NCBI RefSeq assembly: GCF_037265215.1 | Contig: NZ_CP147737.1 | Coordinates: forward strand, 1,768,001 to 1,832,000 | Length of the DNA: 64,000 bases | DNA from: Xenorhabdus griffiniae | GTDB taxonomy: Bacteria > Pseudomonadota > Gammaproteobacteria > Enterobacterales > Enterobacteriaceae | Direction of reading: 5' to 3' | Shown here: piece after piece, positions 8,035 to 61,510 of the stretch | How the letters are laid out: each line of letters begins with the position of its first letter | Position numbering within the stretch: the stretch's first letter is position 1 | Notes under the pieces: model-generated | Told to the model about the DNA's origin: nothing | The model's input: only the letters and a program-made list of their open reading frames with translations | Database searches by the model: none | Program-made: the position numbers and the translations under genes

Positions 8035-11000
8035 TTGAACCAGGAATATACAGAAGACAAACGTGTTAAGTTAAAGAAGATAAGCAGTGGCCGCCGGCTT
8101 CTGGAAGCCGTTCTGTTGGTTATTGCTATCTGTGCTGTGTACTTGATGGTAGTGCTTATCAGCTTTAATCCATCTGATCCCAGTTGGTCACAGACATCAT
8201 GGCATGAACCCGTCCACAATTGGGGTGGCAGTGTTGGTGCTTGGTTATCTGACACGCTATTCTCGGCATTTGGTATTCTTGCCTATGCAGTCCCGCCGTT
8301 TATGTTGTTAGGTTGTTGGAATGCTTTCCGTCAGAAAGATAGGCAAGAGTACATTGATTTCTTCACACTTGCATTACGTGTCATTGGTGCTTTGGCCCTG
8401 ATACTGACATCATGTGGTTTGGCTGCTCTCAATATTGATGATTTAAATGATTTTGCTGCTGGTGGCGTCATTGGCAATTTGTTCGGCAATGCGATTCTGC
8501 CTTGGTTTAACATCCTGGGAGCAACTTTGGCTCTGCTTGGTATGTGGGGCGTTGGGTTCACATTGTTTACCGGATGGTCATGGCTTACGATTGCAGAAAA
8601 AATTGGTGCAGTGATTCTGGATTCGCTGAGTTTTGTCGTCAATCGTGGTCGCAATAATGCTGAATATGATGAAAATGATTTAGAAAATACGTTAGCTTCC
8701 GAACGCTCAGCCAGTGAACAAAAACATGCGGAGCAGGCAGATAAACATGAAATGGTTATATCTACTGAAACGCTAGATGAAGATGATGTATTACTGACAG
8801 CTCCAACGTTAGCCGAATTAGCTGATACAGATTCAGCGTTACAGCCTGCATCAACCTCGCCAGCATTGGATCAACTTCAGGAACAAGAACCTGTTCACTA
8901 TTCTTTTGAATTGCCAGATGATGACCAATCAGATACAAATCCACAATCCGATGACTTTTCTCAGGCTATTTCAAATCTATCCACAAACAGTTCTGCTGGC
9001 ACGAATACGCATTTACAAGATGATAATGTAACAGATACGTTTACTCTTCCTGCAAAGGATAATGTCAATTTAAAAGATGCGGCAACGGATATCGCGACCT
9101 CTGCGGTTGTGACGAAAAATCCACAGATTAAACAAGGTATTGGGCCTGAAATGCCACGCCCTAATCCTGTAAGGATCCCAACCCGTCGCGAATTGTATGG
9201 TATTAAAGTGCCTTCTCACCGTTTGGCAGAGCACATGCAACGGAAAGAAAAAGAGAGGCAGAATGAGCAGGTTGCAGAAGCTAATGAACAGCGAATGGAT
9301 GCCCAACAGCAAGACATGTTGCGTCAGCAATTCCTCAAGCAGCAACGTGAGCGCTATGGTGCTGATTTTGAGGAAGGAAACAGAGAGTCAGAGTCTCGTG
9401 AAGCAAGTACGCTGATACATAAGCAACCAGTGGTAGCTGATGAGCCTACAAAAAATAGCGTAGATAAGCAGACCATAGACGAACAAATAGTAAACGAACA
9501 GCCCATAATCGATGAACAAAAAGCGCAGGAAGAAGCGTTGCGGATAGCATTTGAGCAACAGCAACGTGAACGTTACCAACTAAATCAACCTGAGCCTGCT
9601 GAATTTGTATTTATGCCAACAGAGCCACTGAATCAACAAGTTCAGGAAAAAAATATAGCGACTCCTCTTGATTCTCATGAATCGAGAGATCAGCATATTT
9701 TTGCGCAGCAACCGCAGCAACCGCAGCAACCGCAGCAACCGCAGCAACCGCAGCAACCGCAGCAACCGCAGCAACCGCAGCAACCGCAGCAACCGCAGCA
9801 ACCGCAGCAACCGCAGCAACCGCAGCAACCGCAGCAACCGCAGCAACCGCAGCAACCGCAGCAACCGCAGCAACCGCAGCAACCGCAGCAACCGCAGCAA
9901 CCGCAGCAACCGCAGCAACCGCAGCAACCGCAGCAACCGCAGCAACCGCAGCAAGATAGCTTGTTCCATCCATTTTTGATACGCAATGATCAGCCATTGC
10001 CAAAACCAACGACGCCGATGCCTTCTTTGGATCTTTTGGCCGAACCACCGGCGGAAGAAGAACCGGTTGATATGTTTGCGCTTGAGCAAACCTCGCGTCT
10101 AATTGAAGCGCGTTTGAATGATTATCGCGTTAAAGCGGATGTTGTTGGATTCTCTCCAGGGCCTGTCATTACACGATTTGAATTAGATTTAGCGCCTGGG
10201 GTCAAAGCTTCGCGTATTTCTAACTTAGCACGTGATCTTGCTCGTTCACTTTCAGCGGTAGCGGTTCGTATTGTGGAAGTTATTCCGGGCAGACCTTATG
10301 TTGGTTTGGAATTACCCAATAAAAAACGCCAAACAGTTTATCTGCGGGAAGTTTTGGACTGTGAGAAATTCCGTGATAACCCTTCACCGTTAACTATCGT
10401 CTTAGGAAAAGACATTGCAGGACAGCCAGTTGTGGCTGACTTGGGTAAGATGCCTCACTTACTGGTAGCAGGAACGACAGGTTCGGGTAAATCGGTAGGG
10501 GTCAATGCGATGATCCTCAGTATTCTGTATAAAGCGAAACCAGAGGATGTTCGCTTTATTATGATTGATCCGAAAATGCTTGAGTTATCGGTTTACGAGG
10601 GCATTCCACATTTATTGACCGAAGTTGTCACTGATATGAAAGATGCAGCCAATGCATTGCGTTGGTGCGTAAATGAAATGGAGCGACGTTATAAGCTGAT
10701 GTCAGCTTTAGGAGTGCGCAACATTGCGGGCTATAACGACAAGATTAAGCAAGCCGAAAATATGGGGCGACCGATCCCTGATCCGTTCTGGAAACCAGGT
10801 GACAGTATGGATGTAACGCATCCTATGCTGAAAAAAGAGCCTTATATCGTTGTTATGGTTGATGAATTTGCTGATTTAATGATGACGGTTGGGAAAAAGG
10901 TGGAAGAATTAATTGCACGTTTGGCTCAGAAAGCACGGGCGGCAGGTATCCACTTAGTATTGGCAACTCAGCGTCCTTCTGTTGATATTATCACCGGACT

Positions 11001-11493
11001 GATTAAGGCCAATATTCCGACACGCATTGCATTTACAGTATCCAGTAAAATAGATTCCCGTACCATTCTTGATCAAGGTGGTGCAGAATCATTGCTTGGT
11101 ATGGGGGACATGCTTTATTTGGCACCAAACTCTTCCATTCCTGTACGTGTTCATGGAGCATTTGTGCGCGATCAAGAAGTGCATGAAGTTGTGAATGACT
11201 GGAAAGCTCGTGGCCGCCCTCAATATATAGACAGCATTGTCAAAGGGGGAGAAGAGAATGAAGGCAGTATGGGCTTTGATAGCGATGAAGAGCTCGATCC
11301 CCTGTTTGATCAAGCGGTTGAATTTGTGGTCGAAAAGCGTCGTGTCTCTATTTCGGGCGTGCAACGTCAATTTCGGATTGGATATAACCGCGCAGCCCGG
11401 ATTGTCGAACAAATGGAAGCACAACAGATAGTGAGTGCTCCTGGGCATAATGGCAATCGTGAAGTTTTGGCACCTCCGCCCCATGAACATTAA
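8035..11493 (+). CDS. ftsK: DNA translocase FtsK
   Basis: Septal DNA pump that moves the terminus region and activates XerCD at dif. 1152 residues (E. coli 1329). N-terminus with four membrane segments within residues 20-180; a long Gln/Glu/Pro-rich linker (about 200-670) containing a perfect QQP repeat; then the motor with Walker [10 protein letters not shown] at about 812 and Walker [13 protein letters not shown]; and a C-terminal gamma winged helix ([18 protein letters not shown]) that reads KOPS. The start is TTG at 8035 with GGAGAG six bases upstream; [20 protein letters not shown] aligns with the E. coli start. Linker length is variable in this family, and most of the length difference is there. 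Confidence 0.97.
9706..9954 (+). repeat. Perfect 9-bp tandem repeat (CAGCAACCG) x 27.7 within ftsK
   Basis: 249 bases of uninterrupted cagcaaccg units, encoding 27 QQP triplets plus QQ at FtsK residues 558-640. The nine-base unit preserves the reading frame when copies are gained or lost. Complete identity of all units points to recent expansion or ongoing homogenisation. The other five frames are also open through it, which creates several false long ORFs. Confidence 0.97.
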
Positions 11494-13549: not shown

Positions 13550-13656
13550 TATACGCATTAAACTTCAAGTTGCAATTTACAACACGATATGAAATTTGAT
13601 GCCTCCCTGCTTTGCAGGGAGGCATCACACGCATCTTGAAGTTAGATTGGTTTATA
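13550..13656 (-). repeat. ~105-bp palindromic element, copy 1 (reverse orientation)
   Basis: Full-length copy: TATACGCATTAAACTTCAAG at the left end, TTGAAGTTAGATTGG near the right end. The central hairpin arm is here atgcctccctgc/gcagggaggcat, so the stem is kept although its sequence differs from most copies. It lies between rarA and serS. With copy 2 at 15084 it brackets serS in inverted orientation. Confidence 0.9.
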
Positions 13657-15083: not shown

Positions 15084-15190
15084 TATACCAATCTAACTTC
15101 AAGATGCGCGTGATTTCTTCCCGCAAAACGGGGGGAGAAATCACGTTTCATATCGTGTTGTAAATTGCAACTTGAAGTTTAATGCGTATA
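15084..15190 (+). repeat. ~105-bp palindromic element, copy 2
   Basis: Starts TATACCAATCTAACTTCAAG and ends CTTGAAGTTTAATGCGTATA; central arm ttcttcccgc/gggggagaaatc and inner arm gttgtaaattgcaac. It ends three bases before the stop codon of the leftward gene at 15194. Confidence 0.92.
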
Positions 15191-16327: not shown

Positions 16328-16495
16328 TATACCAATCTAACTTCAAGAGGCGTGTGATTTCTCCCCGTGTTGTAAATTACAACTTGAAGTTTAAATAGCG
16401 TTTCAAAATAATAGGAGTATTCCTTACCCCGCGCGGGGTAAGTAACTCCAACATCTGATACTCTCAGTATTATGAAAACCTATTTAATGCGTATA
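16328..16495 (+). repeat. ~105-bp palindromic element, copy 3, arm-deleted and interrupted
   Basis: Left part 16328-16393 (TATACCAATCTAACTTCAAG ... CTTGAAGTTTA) and the last bases 16485-16495 (TAATGCGTATA) of one element, split by a 91-bp insertion. The central hairpin arm is missing: ctccccg joins directly to tgttgtaaattac. These nested elements, plus the hairpin at 16519, are all I can recognise in the 595-base gap before pflA; the first 300 bases are AT-rich leader of the leftward gene. Confidence 0.85.
16394..16484 (+). mobile_element. MITE-like TA-flanked element, copy A (91 bp)
   Basis: Terminal inverted repeats aatagcgtttcaaaata and, at the other end, the reverse complement of aataggttttcataata. 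Directly flanked by TA on both sides (16392-16393 and 16485-16486); removing the element and one TA restores the exact end of the surrounding palindromic element. Central palindrome ccttaccccgcg/cggggtaag. No coding capacity. TA target duplication suggests mobilisation by an IS630/Tc1-type transposase elsewhere in the genome, which is inference. Confidence 0.8.
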
Positions 16496-20931: not shown

Positions 20932-21037
20932 TATACCAACCTAACTTCAAGATGCGTATGATTTCTCCCCCGTGAAGCGGGGAGAAATCAGGTTTCGTAT
21001 CGTGTTGTAAATTGCAACTTGAAGTTTAATGCATATA
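20932..21037 (+). repeat. ~105-bp palindromic element, copy 4
   Basis: TATACCAACCTAACTTCAAG at the left end, GAAGTTTAATGCATATA at the right. Central arm gatttctccccc/ggggagaaatc closed by a short loop, then gttgtaaattgcaac. It ends seven bases from the ycaO stop codon, so it forms the 3' end of the ycaO transcript. Confidence 0.92.
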
Positions 21038-24275: not shown

Positions 24276-24381
24276 TATATGCATTAAACTTCAAGTTGCA
24301 ATTTACAACACTATATGAAACGTGATTTTACCCCGCGGAACGGGGGAGAAATCACACGTATCTTGAAGTTAGATTGGTATA
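24276..24381 (-). repeat. ~105-bp palindromic element, copy 5 (reverse orientation)
   Basis: TATATGCATTAAACTTCAAG at left and CTTGAAGTTAGATTGGTATA at right, with gttgcaatttacaac and the arm gattttaccccgc/cgggggagaaatc. It lies in the 531-base gap between ansB and serC, together with the ansB terminator; the rest of the gap is AT-rich with nothing else recognised. Confidence 0.92.
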
Positions 24382-30162: not shown

Positions 30163-30251
30163 TATATACTAATCGCCTTTCAAGATGCGTCTTATATCTC
30201 CCAGCGTAGCGGGGATAAACAATATGCATCTTGAAGTGAGATAGGTATATA
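30163..30251 (+). repeat. Short palindromic element, subfamily 2, copy 1
   Basis: An 89-bp imperfect palindrome: left end TATATACTAATCGCCTTTCA, right end CTTGAAGTGAGATAGGTATA. It shares the terminal TATA and the CTTCAAGATGCG block with the 105-bp family but has a different interior (cgtcttatatctccc, then aacaatatgcatc). It follows the ihfB terminator directly. The remaining 180 bases before comEC hold nothing I recognise. Confidence 0.8.
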
Positions 30252-40522: not shown

Positions 40523-43500
40523 TTGAACGCGGTAAATTTCGCTCACTGACGTTAGTTAATTGGAATGGTTTTTTTGCCAGAACGTTTGATCTTGACGAAC
40601 TTGTGACAACGTTATCCGGCGGTAATGGTGCTGGTAAATCAACCACAATGGCAGCCTTTGTCACTGCATTGATCCCTGATTTAACATTGCTCCATTTCCG
40701 CAATACGACAGAAGCGGGGGCAACTTCAGGTTCACGTGATAAAGGGTTGCACGGTAAGTTACGGGCAGGTGTTTGCTACTCCACGCTGGACGTGGTTAAT
40801 TCACGCCATCAACGGATCATCACCGGAGTCCGTTTACAGCAAGTCGCAGGACGTGATCGAAAAGTTGATATTAAACCCTTTATGATTCAGGGCGTTCCTG
40901 CGTCGATTCAGCCAACGCAGTTATTGACTGACAATATCAACGAACGTCAGGCGCGGGTGCTGCCGTTAAATGAACTAAAGGAACGCCTTGATAAGATGGA
41001 AGGCGTTCAGTTCAAACAATTTAACTCGATTACCGATTACCACGCCCTGATGTTTGATTTGGGTGTGATCCCAAAACGTTTGCGTTCAGCGAGTGACCGC
41101 AGCAAGTTTTATCGTCTGATAGAAGCATCATTATATGGCGGAATTTCCAGTGCGATTACCCGCTCATTGCGTGATTACTTGTTACCGGAAAACAGCGGTG
41201 TCAGAAAAGCATTTCAGGATATGGAAGCCGCATTGCGTGAAAATCGCATTACGTTGGAAGCTATCCGTGTCACCCAATCCGACCGTGATCTTTTCAAGCA
41301 CCTTATCACAGAAGCTACGGCTTATGTGTCTGCTGACTATATGCGTCATGCCAACGAACGCCGCGTTCATCTGGATGAGGCATTGGCTTTGCGCAGTGAA
41401 TTATTTGGCAGCCGCCGCCAACTGGTCGCTGAACGATATCGCCATGTTGAAATGGCGCGGGAACTGGGGGAACAAAGCGGAGCCTCTTCTGATTTAGAAA
41501 TGGATTATCAGGCGGCCAGTGATCACCTGAATCTGGTTCAAACGGCGATGCGTCAGCAGGAAAAAATCGATCGCTACCAATCTGATATTGAAGAGCTGAT
41601 CTACCGACTGGAAGAGCAGAGCGAAGTTGTAGAAGAGGCGAGAGATCTTCAGGCGGAATATGAAGCCACATGTGAAGCGGCAGAACAAGAAGTTGATGAA
41701 CTGAAAAGCCAGCTTGCTGACTACCAACAAGCGTTGGATGTACAGCAAACTCGCGCTATTCAATACCAGCAAGCATTGCAAGCATTAGAGCGTGCCCGTG
41801 AACTTTGCCAGCTTCCCGAACTGTCGATAGAAAATGCCGACGAATGGCAGGAAACCTATCAGGCCAAAGCGCAGCAAGCGACAGAGACGTTGCTGGCGTT
41901 GGAACAGAAATTGAGCGTTGCTGACGCAGCGCATAGTCAGTTTGAGCAGGCTTACCAACTGGTAAAAAGTATTATTGGTGAAGTGAGCCGTAGTGAAGCC
42001 TGGCAAGCTGCTCGTGAAGCATTGCGTGAATGGCCATCCCAGCGTCATCTGGCTGAGCGCGTCCAACCTTTGCGTATCCAATTGACCGAACTGGAACAAC
42101 GCCTGAACAGTCAGCAAAATGCAGAACGTTTGTTGGAAGAGTTTTGTAAGCGTCATAATCAGCAACATCAGGCAGAAGACCTGGAGGCGTTACGGGGTGA
42201 ACTGGAAGCTCAGTTGGAAGAATTGAGCCTGGGCGCCAATGAAAGTGGTGAACGTCGTATTCAAATACGTCAGGAATTTGAACAGCTCAAGCAAAAAATT
42301 CAAGGGCTGACCGCACGGGCACCGGTGTGGTTGGCGGCACAGGAAGCCTTGCAGCAGCTGAGTGAACAATGCAATGAAACATTCGAAAATAGTCACGATG
42401 TGACTGAATATATGCAGCAATTGCTTGAGCAAGAGCGTGAAATTACAGTCGAACGTGATGATATTGCGGCACAGAAACGCGAACTGGAAAAACAGATTGA
42501 ACGTTTGAGCCAACCAAGTGGTGCCGAAGATAGCCGATTGCTCGCATTGGCAGAGCGTTTTGGTGGTGTTTTGTTGTCTGAAATTTATGACGACATTACC
42601 ATTGATGACGCGCCTTATTTCTCCGCATTGTATGGTCCTGCACGTCACGCAATTGTCGTGCCTGATCTCTCACTACTTCGTCCACATCTGGAAACATTGG
42701 AAGATTGCCCGGAAGATCTCTATTTAATTGAGGGCGATCCACAGTCTTTTGATGACAGCGTCTTCCATTTTGAAGAGCAGGAAAACGCGGTTCTGGTGAA
42801 ATCATCCGATCGCCAGTGGCGTTATTCCCGTTATCCTGAAGTTCCATTATTTGGGCGGGCAGCAAGAGAAAGTCGTCTGGAAGCACTTAGCCTTGAGCGT
42901 GATACGCTGGCAGAGCGCTACGCGACACTTTCGTTTGATGTGCAAAAAGTTCAGCGTGCGCATCAGGCTTTCAGTCGTTTTGTCGGTAAACACCTTTCTG
43001 TTGTGTTTGATGATGATCCAGAAGCAGAAATTCGTCGTCTGAGTCAGCGTCGTACTGAATTGGAGCGTGAGTTATCGCAATTTGAAACCCAGGCTCAGCA
43101 ACATCAGCAGAAGCTGGTTCAGGTGAAAGAGAGCCTGTCACTATTAAATCGCCTGATTCCACAAATGACGATTTTGTTGGATGAAACCCTGTTTGAGCGC
43201 GTGGAAACCGTCCGTGAAGAAATGAGTGAGGCTCAGGAAGCCGCGCGTTTCCTGCAACAACACGGTAATGCGTTGGCTAAACTTGAACCGTTGGTTTCGG
43301 TCTTGCAAAGTGATCCACAGCAACATGAGCAGTTGCAGAAGGATTATGAGGCCGTGAAACAGAGCCAGAATCAGGCTAAACAACAAACCTTTGCCTTGAC
43401 GGAAGTAGTGCAACGCCGTGCGCATTTCAGCTATAGCGACTCTGCCGGTATGCTTAACGAAAATGCCGACTTGAACGACAAATTGCGCCAACGCCTTGAA

Positions 43501-45897: not shown

Positions 45898-45928
45898 AAA
45901 GGCACTAAAGGTGCCTTTTTCTTTTTTT
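45898..45928 (+). terminator. Intrinsic terminator of aphA
   Basis: aaaggcac (45898-45905) pairs with gtgccttt (45911-45918), followed by ttctttttt. The subfamily-2 repeat starts at its last base. Confidence 0.88.
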
Positions 45929-45995
45929 ATACGCGTTACCTTTCAAGTTACTCATTATAAGACAACAATATGTATCTTGAGGTGAGATGGGTATA
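45928..45995 (+). repeat. Short palindromic element, subfamily 2, copy 2 (shortened)
   Basis: TATACGCGTTACCTTTCAAG at left and CTTGAGGTGAGATGGGTATA at right with aacaatatgtatc inside. At 68 bp it lacks the gcg/cgc-rich central arm of the copy at 30163. It is followed within 30 bases by a 105-bp element. Confidence 0.7.
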
Positions 45996-46023: not shown

Positions 46024-46128
46024 TATACGCATTAAACTTCAAGTTGTAATTTACAACACGATATGAAACCTGATTTTTTCCCGCTTCGCGGGGAGAAATT
46101 ACACGCATCTTGAAGTTAGGTTGGTATA
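46024..46128 (-). repeat. ~105-bp palindromic element, copy 6 (reverse orientation)
   Basis: TATACGCATTAAACTTCAAG at left, CTTGAAGTTAGGTTGGTATA at right, central arm ttcccgcttcgcggggagaa. This, the aphA terminator and the short repeat are what I see in the 425-base gap between aphA and ldtD; the last 160 bases are an AT-rich presumed ldtD promoter region. Confidence 0.92.
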
Positions 46129-48066: not shown

Positions 48067-48171
48067 TATACCAATCTAACTTCAAGATGCGTGTGATTTC
48101 TCCCCGAGAAGCGGGGAGAAATCAGGTTTTATATCGTGTTGTAAATTGTAACTTGAAGTTTAATGCGTATA
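48067..48171 (+). repeat. ~105-bp palindromic element, copy 7
   Basis: Canonical copy: TATACCAATCTAACTTCAAG, arm gatttctccccg/cggggagaaatc, gttgtaaattgtaac, ending TTTAATGCGTATA. Together with copy 8 at 48408 it occupies much of the 542-base gap between ldtD and ycbK; the 236 bases between them are AT-rich with no gene I can support. Confidence 0.94.
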
Positions 48172-48407: not shown

Positions 48408-48512
48408 TATACCAATATAACTTCAAGATGCGTGTGATTTCTCCCCGCGAAGCGGGGAAAAATCAGGTTTCATAGAATGCTGTAAATGGCAACTTGAAGT
48501 TTAATGTGTATA
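48408..48512 (+). repeat. ~105-bp palindromic element, copy 8
   Basis: Same orientation as copy 7, 105 bp. A few differences (agaatgctgtaaatggc instead of the usual tcgtgttgtaaattgc) weaken the second arm. It ends 41 bases before the ycbK start. Confidence 0.92.
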
Positions 48513-58553: not shown

Positions 58554-58628
58554 TATATTAATCTAACTTTAAGATGCGTGTGATTTCATATCGTGTTGTC
58601 AATTGCAACTTGAAGTTTAGTACATATA
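58554..58628 (+). repeat. ~105-bp palindromic element, copy 9 (75-bp arm-deletion form)
   Basis: TATATTAATCTAACTTTAAG to CTTGAAGTTTAGTACATATA, keeping the inner gttgtcaattgcaac but missing the central hairpin arm: gtgatttc joins directly to atatcg. With the pepN terminator it is all I recognise in the 310-base pepN-pyrD gap. Confidence 0.85.
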
Positions 58629-61039: not shown

Positions 61040-61144
61040 TATACCAATCCAACTTCAAGATACATGTAATTTCTCCCCGCGAAGCGGGGAGAAATCAGGT
61101 TTCATATCGTGTAGTAAATTGCAACTTGAAGTTTAATGCGTATA
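61040..61144 (+). repeat. ~105-bp palindromic element, copy 10
   Basis: TATACCAATCCAACTTCAAG at left, TTTAATGCGTATA at right, arm ttctccccgc/gcggggagaa with GAA loop. A clean full-length copy. Confidence 0.94.
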
Positions 61145-61262
61145 GATAAAAACTCAAAAAAAAGCACATAAATTCTAACAATGACATCATTTAAAAATGA
61201 AAATACAGAAAAACGTTGAGTATTCATTTTTTATTATTCTATATTTATGTCCTTTAGTTATA

Positions 61263-61360
61263 AATAGGCTTTCATAATACTGAGAGTATCAGATGTTGGC
61301 GTTCCTTACCCCGCGCGGAGCGCGGGGTAAGGAATACTCCTATCATTTTGAAACACTATT
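61263..61360 (-). mobile_element. MITE-like TA-flanked element, copy B (98 bp)
   Basis: Same family as the element at 16394-16484, in the opposite orientation and seven bases longer in the central palindrome (ccccgcgc, ggag, gcgcgggg). Ends aataggctttcataata and, inverted, aatagtgtttcaaaat. TA on both sides (61261-61262, 61361-61362); the right TA is also the first TA of the neighbouring palindromic element. Confidence 0.82.
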
Positions 61361-61510
61361 TATACCTATCTCACTTCAAGATGCGTGTGATTTCTCCCCG
61401 CTTCGCGGTCAGGTTTCATATGATGCGTCTTATATCTCCCCACGTAGTGGAGAGATATAAACAATCACATTGATTTGCAAGCTGCAACTTGAGGTTGGAT
61501 TGGTAATATA
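61361..61510. repeat. Mosaic palindromic element (both subfamilies)
   Basis: Left end of subfamily 2 (TATACCTATCTCACTTCAAG), then the tgtgatttctccccgc arm and caggtttcatat of the 105-bp family, then the subfamily-2 interior (gcgtcttatatctcccc ... gatataaacaatc), and a right end of the 105-bp family type in reverse (CAACTTGAGGTTGGATTGG). It ends ten bases from the ycbX stop. Confidence 0.75.

Follow-up and report, generated by a model that had tools for sequence, protein, structure and literature searches.

Palindromic elements in the window

Positions 61040 to 61144 of the window, by which the whole analysed stretch of 64 kb from Xenorhabdus griffiniae is meant, hold a palindromic element of 105 bp that recurs at several other places of the same stretch. 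Ten related elements had been listed in the initial annotation. A covariance model built from these copies and run unfiltered over the window recovered a related element at all ten coordinates, eight of them of full length and two (at 16328 and 58554) lacking the central hairpin; the list was therefore real throughout, although it had overlooked two further relatives at 30165-30249 and 61361-61459. The totals for the window are eight full copies (105-107 nt, 119-129 bits), two hairpin-less copies, and two related variants, with all scores referring to this self-derived model. Further weak matches mostly represented the opposite strands of the same palindromes and were left uncounted, as was a match of 23.7 bits at 45928-45995. 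The twelve elements were compared with the corresponding places in four relatives, namely G060, which belongs to the same species as the window genome, G017, which belongs to another species, G002, and G027, resulting in 48 site-by-genome cells. The elements and the states found in the relatives are as follows.

13550..13654, minus strand: full element, central hairpin of different sequence that still pairs; G060 and G017 lack the element and show a single TA
15084..15190, plus strand: full element; a chimeric element occupies the corresponding place in G060
16328..16495, plus strand: hairpin-less element (57 bits) whose right end carries, inserted in a TA, a second-family element; both are absent in G017, where a single TA remains
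20932..21037, plus strand: full element (covariance model)
24276..24381, minus strand: full element (covariance model)
30165..30249, plus strand: 85-bp variant with the same left end and another right end (50.5 bits); absent in G017, with TATA common to the flanks
46024..46128, minus strand: full element (covariance model)
48067..48171, plus strand: full element; no element in G017, flanks not precisely alignable
48408..48512, plus strand: full element; absent in G060 and G017, where a single TA remains
58554..58628, plus strand: element without the central hairpin (75 nt, 72 bits); a rearranged element is found at the G060 counterpart
61040..61144, plus strand: full 105-bp element, reference copy (covariance model)
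61361..61459, plus strand: composite variant with the left end of the element (39.5 bits; covariance model)

The copy at 16328 extends as far as 16495 because of the second-family insertion in the TA of its right end. The central arm of the 13550 copy indeed differs in sequence while its pairing is kept, as had been noted before, and a direct count agrees with the earlier figure of 16 identical positions between the two 20-nt ends.

Anatomy of the unit

The unit consists of a TA, 101 bp, and another TA, and both terminal TAs are present in 85 of the 90 distinct copies of at least 100 nt. Its left end is TATACCAATCTAACTTCAAGATGC, and its right end, in inward reading, is TATACGCATTAAACTTCAAGTTGC, which differs from the left one at 5 of 24 positions. 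A GC-rich hairpin lies between the ends, with GATTTCTCCCCGC-GAA-GCGGGGAGAAATC as its commonest form, and a short arm, GTTGTA..TGCAAC, overlaps the right repeat. The 101 bp between the TAs are too short to accommodate a transposase gene, as is characteristic of a MITE. Some copies are also arranged head to tail, in arrays of four (period 103) and of three (period 104) in which neighbouring units have a TA in common. A tandem pair at 189770/189876 abuts without a common TA, which counts against the reading as a MITE that inserts at TA.

Insertion at TA dinucleotides

Clean empty sites were found in 6 of the 48 site-by-genome cells; in the others, a contig ended, the flanks had diverged, or something else was inserted. 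At 13550 and 48408, the flanks meet at a single TA in both G060 and G017, and the compound element at 16328 is missing from G017, again leaving a single TA. As judged from these empty sites and from the shared TA in the arrays, the elements show the TA target and the target duplication of MITEs of the IS630/Tc1-mariner type. G017 carries a subfamily of its own with about 80% identity, and a copy of this subfamily (L143:8946-9050), which is more diverged than its flanks, is present at the place corresponding to 20932, while G002 and G027 have none there. The elements at this place in the window genome and in G017 either arrived independently or result from a replacement.

A second family of palindromes, likewise about 105 bp long and with the ends TATAAATAG..TTTCA and a GC-rich centre, is found at 61259-61363 and at about 16392-16487, where it interrupts a copy of the 105-bp element at a TA. 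Matches to this family in the relatives amount to 17 places, 16 in G060 and one in G017. The place in G060 that corresponds to 15084 (L140) carries a chimera, with the left half derived from the 105-bp element, the right half from a second-family element, and the junction at the hairpin. This chimera indicates that the two families recombine as modules.

Abundance, distribution, and gene context

The genome from which the window derives (4.77 Mb in one contig) contains at least 150 full-length matches to the covariance model, since all 150 candidates that were scored proved to be of full length. The 18-mer at the right end occurs 258 times in this genome with at most one mismatch, compared to no occurrence of a reversed control; 110 of these occurrences are on the forward and 148 on the reverse strand, which is a mild imbalance. 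A first look yielded 402 candidates in the own genome vs fewer than 20 in many other genomes of the genus. Matches were obtained in 19 of 60 genomes including the own one, all of them among the 29 genomes belonging to the genus of the window, and in a family-wide sample in 3 of 295 genomes, again including the own one, and in 1 of 154 genera. This restriction to the genus holds for the sampled genomes, among which Photorhabdus is possibly not represented. Plasmid, phage, and viral-contig collections, which may leave out near records, yielded no matches to the element. Taken by its distribution, the element looks like a mobile one that has undergone bursts in some lineages. As a separate observation, strong LuxC-like matches are present throughout the genus of the window.

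The open reading frames around 50 loci of the own genome were inspected by a crude check, which found divergent frames on either side of 20 elements, co-directional ones around 18, and convergent ones around 11. The remaining one lies inside a short, possibly spurious ORF of 90 codons; the initial annotation had described the elements as all intergenic. Among the 18 co-directional loci, the element has the same sense as the frames in 10 cases and the opposite sense in 6, with 2 undetermined.

A candidate mobilising transposase of the IS630 family

Of 30 genomes of the genus, 28 contain matches to the IS630-type DDE_3 domain. The own genome has 14 such matches, and an intact open frame of 359 codons of the kind seen at locus L066 is present at two places. 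The IS630 element at L066, also from the own genome, codes for 345 amino acids without stops, comprising DDE_3 and winged-helix domains, and its right end is identical to the left end of the 105-bp element in 23 of 24 bases. More generally, of the 15 IS right ends that could be read, 9 differ from this left end by no more than two bases, while the other 6 represent a second type, TATACGCAATTAACTTGAAGATGC or a near variant, with 4-5 mismatches to either end of the 105-bp element. The right end of the latter agrees with the second IS type at 20 and with the first at 18 of 24 positions, and the 14 readable IS left ends show 5-6 mismatches to its left end. By chance, the repeat-masked window offers at best 8-9 mismatches to the left end and 6-8 to the right one. 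Because the 4-6 mismatches separating the right end from the IS types come close to this chance level, the case for IS630 rests on the left end; accordingly, terminal repeats like those of IS630 are evident at the left end and weak at the right. Inside the ends, four comparisons between the palindromic element and the IS gave no significant similarity (values reached by 78, 539, 646, and 732 of 2000 shuffles), and an origin of the element as a simple internal deletion of IS630 is therefore unsupported.

All 38 transposase loci found in named genomes belong to Xenorhabdus, a count that was obtained with a single protein as query and thus covers close relatives only. In Xenorhabdus sp. BG5 (L100), such an IS directly adjoins a full copy of the 105-bp element, with the terminal TA in common. 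As far as can be judged from the sequences, a resident transposase of the IS630 type very probably moves the element.

Because of the TA duplication, the presence or absence of copies within a species, the high and uneven copy number, and the intact IS630 with a matching end, the 105-bp palindromes are interpreted with high confidence as a non-autonomous MITE of the IS630/Tc1-mariner type, whose ends would be recognised in trans by a resident IS630 transposase. The MITE inserts at TA dinucleotides, which are duplicated, and the transposase, whose own end is nearly the same, should be able to act in trans on the imperfect 24-bp repeats of the MITE. The outer stem of the predicted fold would then correspond to the pair of terminal repeats. 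The pairing of the central hairpin may have been kept either by a fold that aids movement or tolerance in transcripts, or by the capacity of long hairpins to template their own correction.

Fold and covariation

The four strands that were folded gave z-scores from -5.9 to -8.4, and the central hairpin together with the inner portion of the outer helix formed in all of them, whereas the third arm was mostly replaced by other pairings. Covariation was analysed in 96 distinct copies, taken from the own genome as well as from others, using a structure of 31 pairs which is formed in 95.3% of the cells. Changes on both sides were recorded for 15 of the 31 pairs, compared to a shuffle mean of 6.1 (none of 500 shuffles reached 15) and to 2-7 in slid controls, values that have to be read with the caution that a related model had guided the fitting of the alignment and that the copies share descent. 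These compensatory changes, for which a check had been proposed in the initial annotation, fall mainly into the central hairpin, where 9 of 13 pairs are affected and one pair occurs as TA, AT, CG, or GC among the copies. Little variation is seen in the two outer helices (paired at 96.6% and 97.1%), and the third arm shows changes on both sides in 2 of 5 pairs. With respect to the three-arm fold predicted previously, the central hairpin and the inner outer stem are thus borne out, but support for the third arm is weak. The cloverleaf reading finds no support in the form proposed, as the outer stem corresponds to a transposon's terminal inverted repeats and little speaks for a third arm.

The covariation of the hairpin is not explained by mobility alone. 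With a probability somewhat short of even, it may be a mutational by-product, in which template switching or inversion of the hairpin corrects one arm to match the other while the fold itself is unselected. The compensatory changes are concentrated in the long central hairpin, as such a process would have it, and the inverted loops (CTTCG instead of CGAAG) that 2 of 90 copies contain are a hint of inversion or of templated repair. One-sided intermediates are seen at several pairs (one of them is C-A in 11 copies, another A-C in 17); they argue in the other direction, being compatible with stepwise change. An unlikely extension of the MITE reading assumes a hybrid from two sources, with left and right ends resembling the two types of IS630 right ends, so that either lineage could move the MITE, and with the hairpin as a working part in transposition or in rendering transcripts harmless, which would hence have stayed paired in the separately expanded subfamilies of Xenorhabdus. 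The odds of this reading are lowered because the second IS type is equally near to both ends of the MITE (4-5 mismatches).

It appears quite improbable that the elements are primarily structured RNAs or mRNA-processing elements which are kept for their fold, with mobility being secondary, as has been proposed for repeats of Neisseria and Yersinia. The strong folds would suit such a role, as would the compensatory changes that the central hairpin shows, and excerpts of published reports on similar repeats provide precedents in the form of effects involving RNase III or RNase E (PMC2229807, PMC10969869). On the other hand, copies are present or absent within a species, their number ranges from none to hundreds inside one genus, and the gene contexts are mixed (20 divergent, 18 co-directional, and 11 convergent). 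Moreover, no Rfam family was matched at gathering score in the window, and 43 of 90 copies have no unbroken central stem longer than 11 bp. The elements are hairpin-rich and intergenic, which would also fit REP-like sequences whose single-stranded hairpins are acted on by a Y1 transposase of the RAYT type. This alternative is extremely improbable, since neither the duplication of TA, as seen at the clean empty sites, nor an inverted end shared with a DDE transposon is expected from a Y1 mechanism.

Relation to known elements

Returning to the interpretation as an IS630-type MITE, the initial annotation had regarded a match to an already classified repeat as evidence against its proposal; such a match exists for the kind of element, but not for a named family. 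MITEPlu5 of Photorhabdus luminescens is presented in excerpts of a 2018 report as a 123-bp ERIC-like MITE with 552 complete copies, which was tied by its ends to the CCC-type IS630 elements ISPlu3, 8, and 19 (PMC6267812). Its very high copy number, strong fold, TA target, IS630-type terminal similarity, and strain-to-strain indels (PMC6267812) are features that it has in common with the Xenorhabdus MITE. It differs, in a comparison by description, in being 123 bp long and related to ERIC, whereas the Xenorhabdus MITE measures 101-105 bp and is not ERIC-related as judged against an ERIC copy. In 2010, a 105-bp palindrome with dispersed fragments and unlike ERIC was described from locus D of Photorhabdus TT01alpha, with its origin and role given as unknown in the sections consulted (PMC3091717). 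Having the same length and being likewise palindromic and dispersed, as far as this partial description allows the two to be likened, it may be related to the Xenorhabdus MITE (PMC3091717). An older precedent is RUP of Streptococcus pneumoniae, introduced in part of the respective report as a MITE with TA ends for which mobilisation by the IS630-Spn1 transposase was proposed (PMC2229807). It has these two features in common with the Xenorhabdus MITE and belongs to another lineage, the distinction being based on the partial description rather than on a comparison of sequences (PMC2229807).

The ERIC or RU-1 elements are also enterobacterial and palindromic, with TA ends and imperfect terminal repeats, as seen in a copy from Pantoea (L091). 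This copy is 127 bp long, its ends differ from those of the MITE at 8-10 of 24 positions, and its only matches in the window are of 12-13 nt (at 40910 and 12382), none of them at an element. The core sequence of ERIC is thus not found in the MITE, and a presumed likeness of the ERIC ends was not borne out. RU-3 of E. coli was ruled out by eye against its printed sequence of 103 nt. A search of the open literature, covering titles and the starts of abstracts, retrieved no description of the Xenorhabdus MITE. It is a new IS630-type MITE of Xenorhabdus with a notably well-kept central hairpin, while the kind of element is already known.

For an abundant repeat of Xenorhabdus, a likely origin is thereby proposed together with a candidate transposase, and the MITE accounts for much of the intergenic variation between strains. 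Alongside MITEPlu5 of Photorhabdus, it is a second very high-copy, strongly folding MITE tied to IS630 in nematode symbionts. The changes that keep the fold across subfamilies offer a good test of whether the hairpins of MITEs are selected or self-correcting.

A repeat of a different kind is present at 9632-10017 of the window, consisting of a 9-bp tandem repeat with about 31 registers inside a 1152-aa FtsK-like frame (8035-11493) with FtsK domains. It is located between the membrane and motor domains of this frame.
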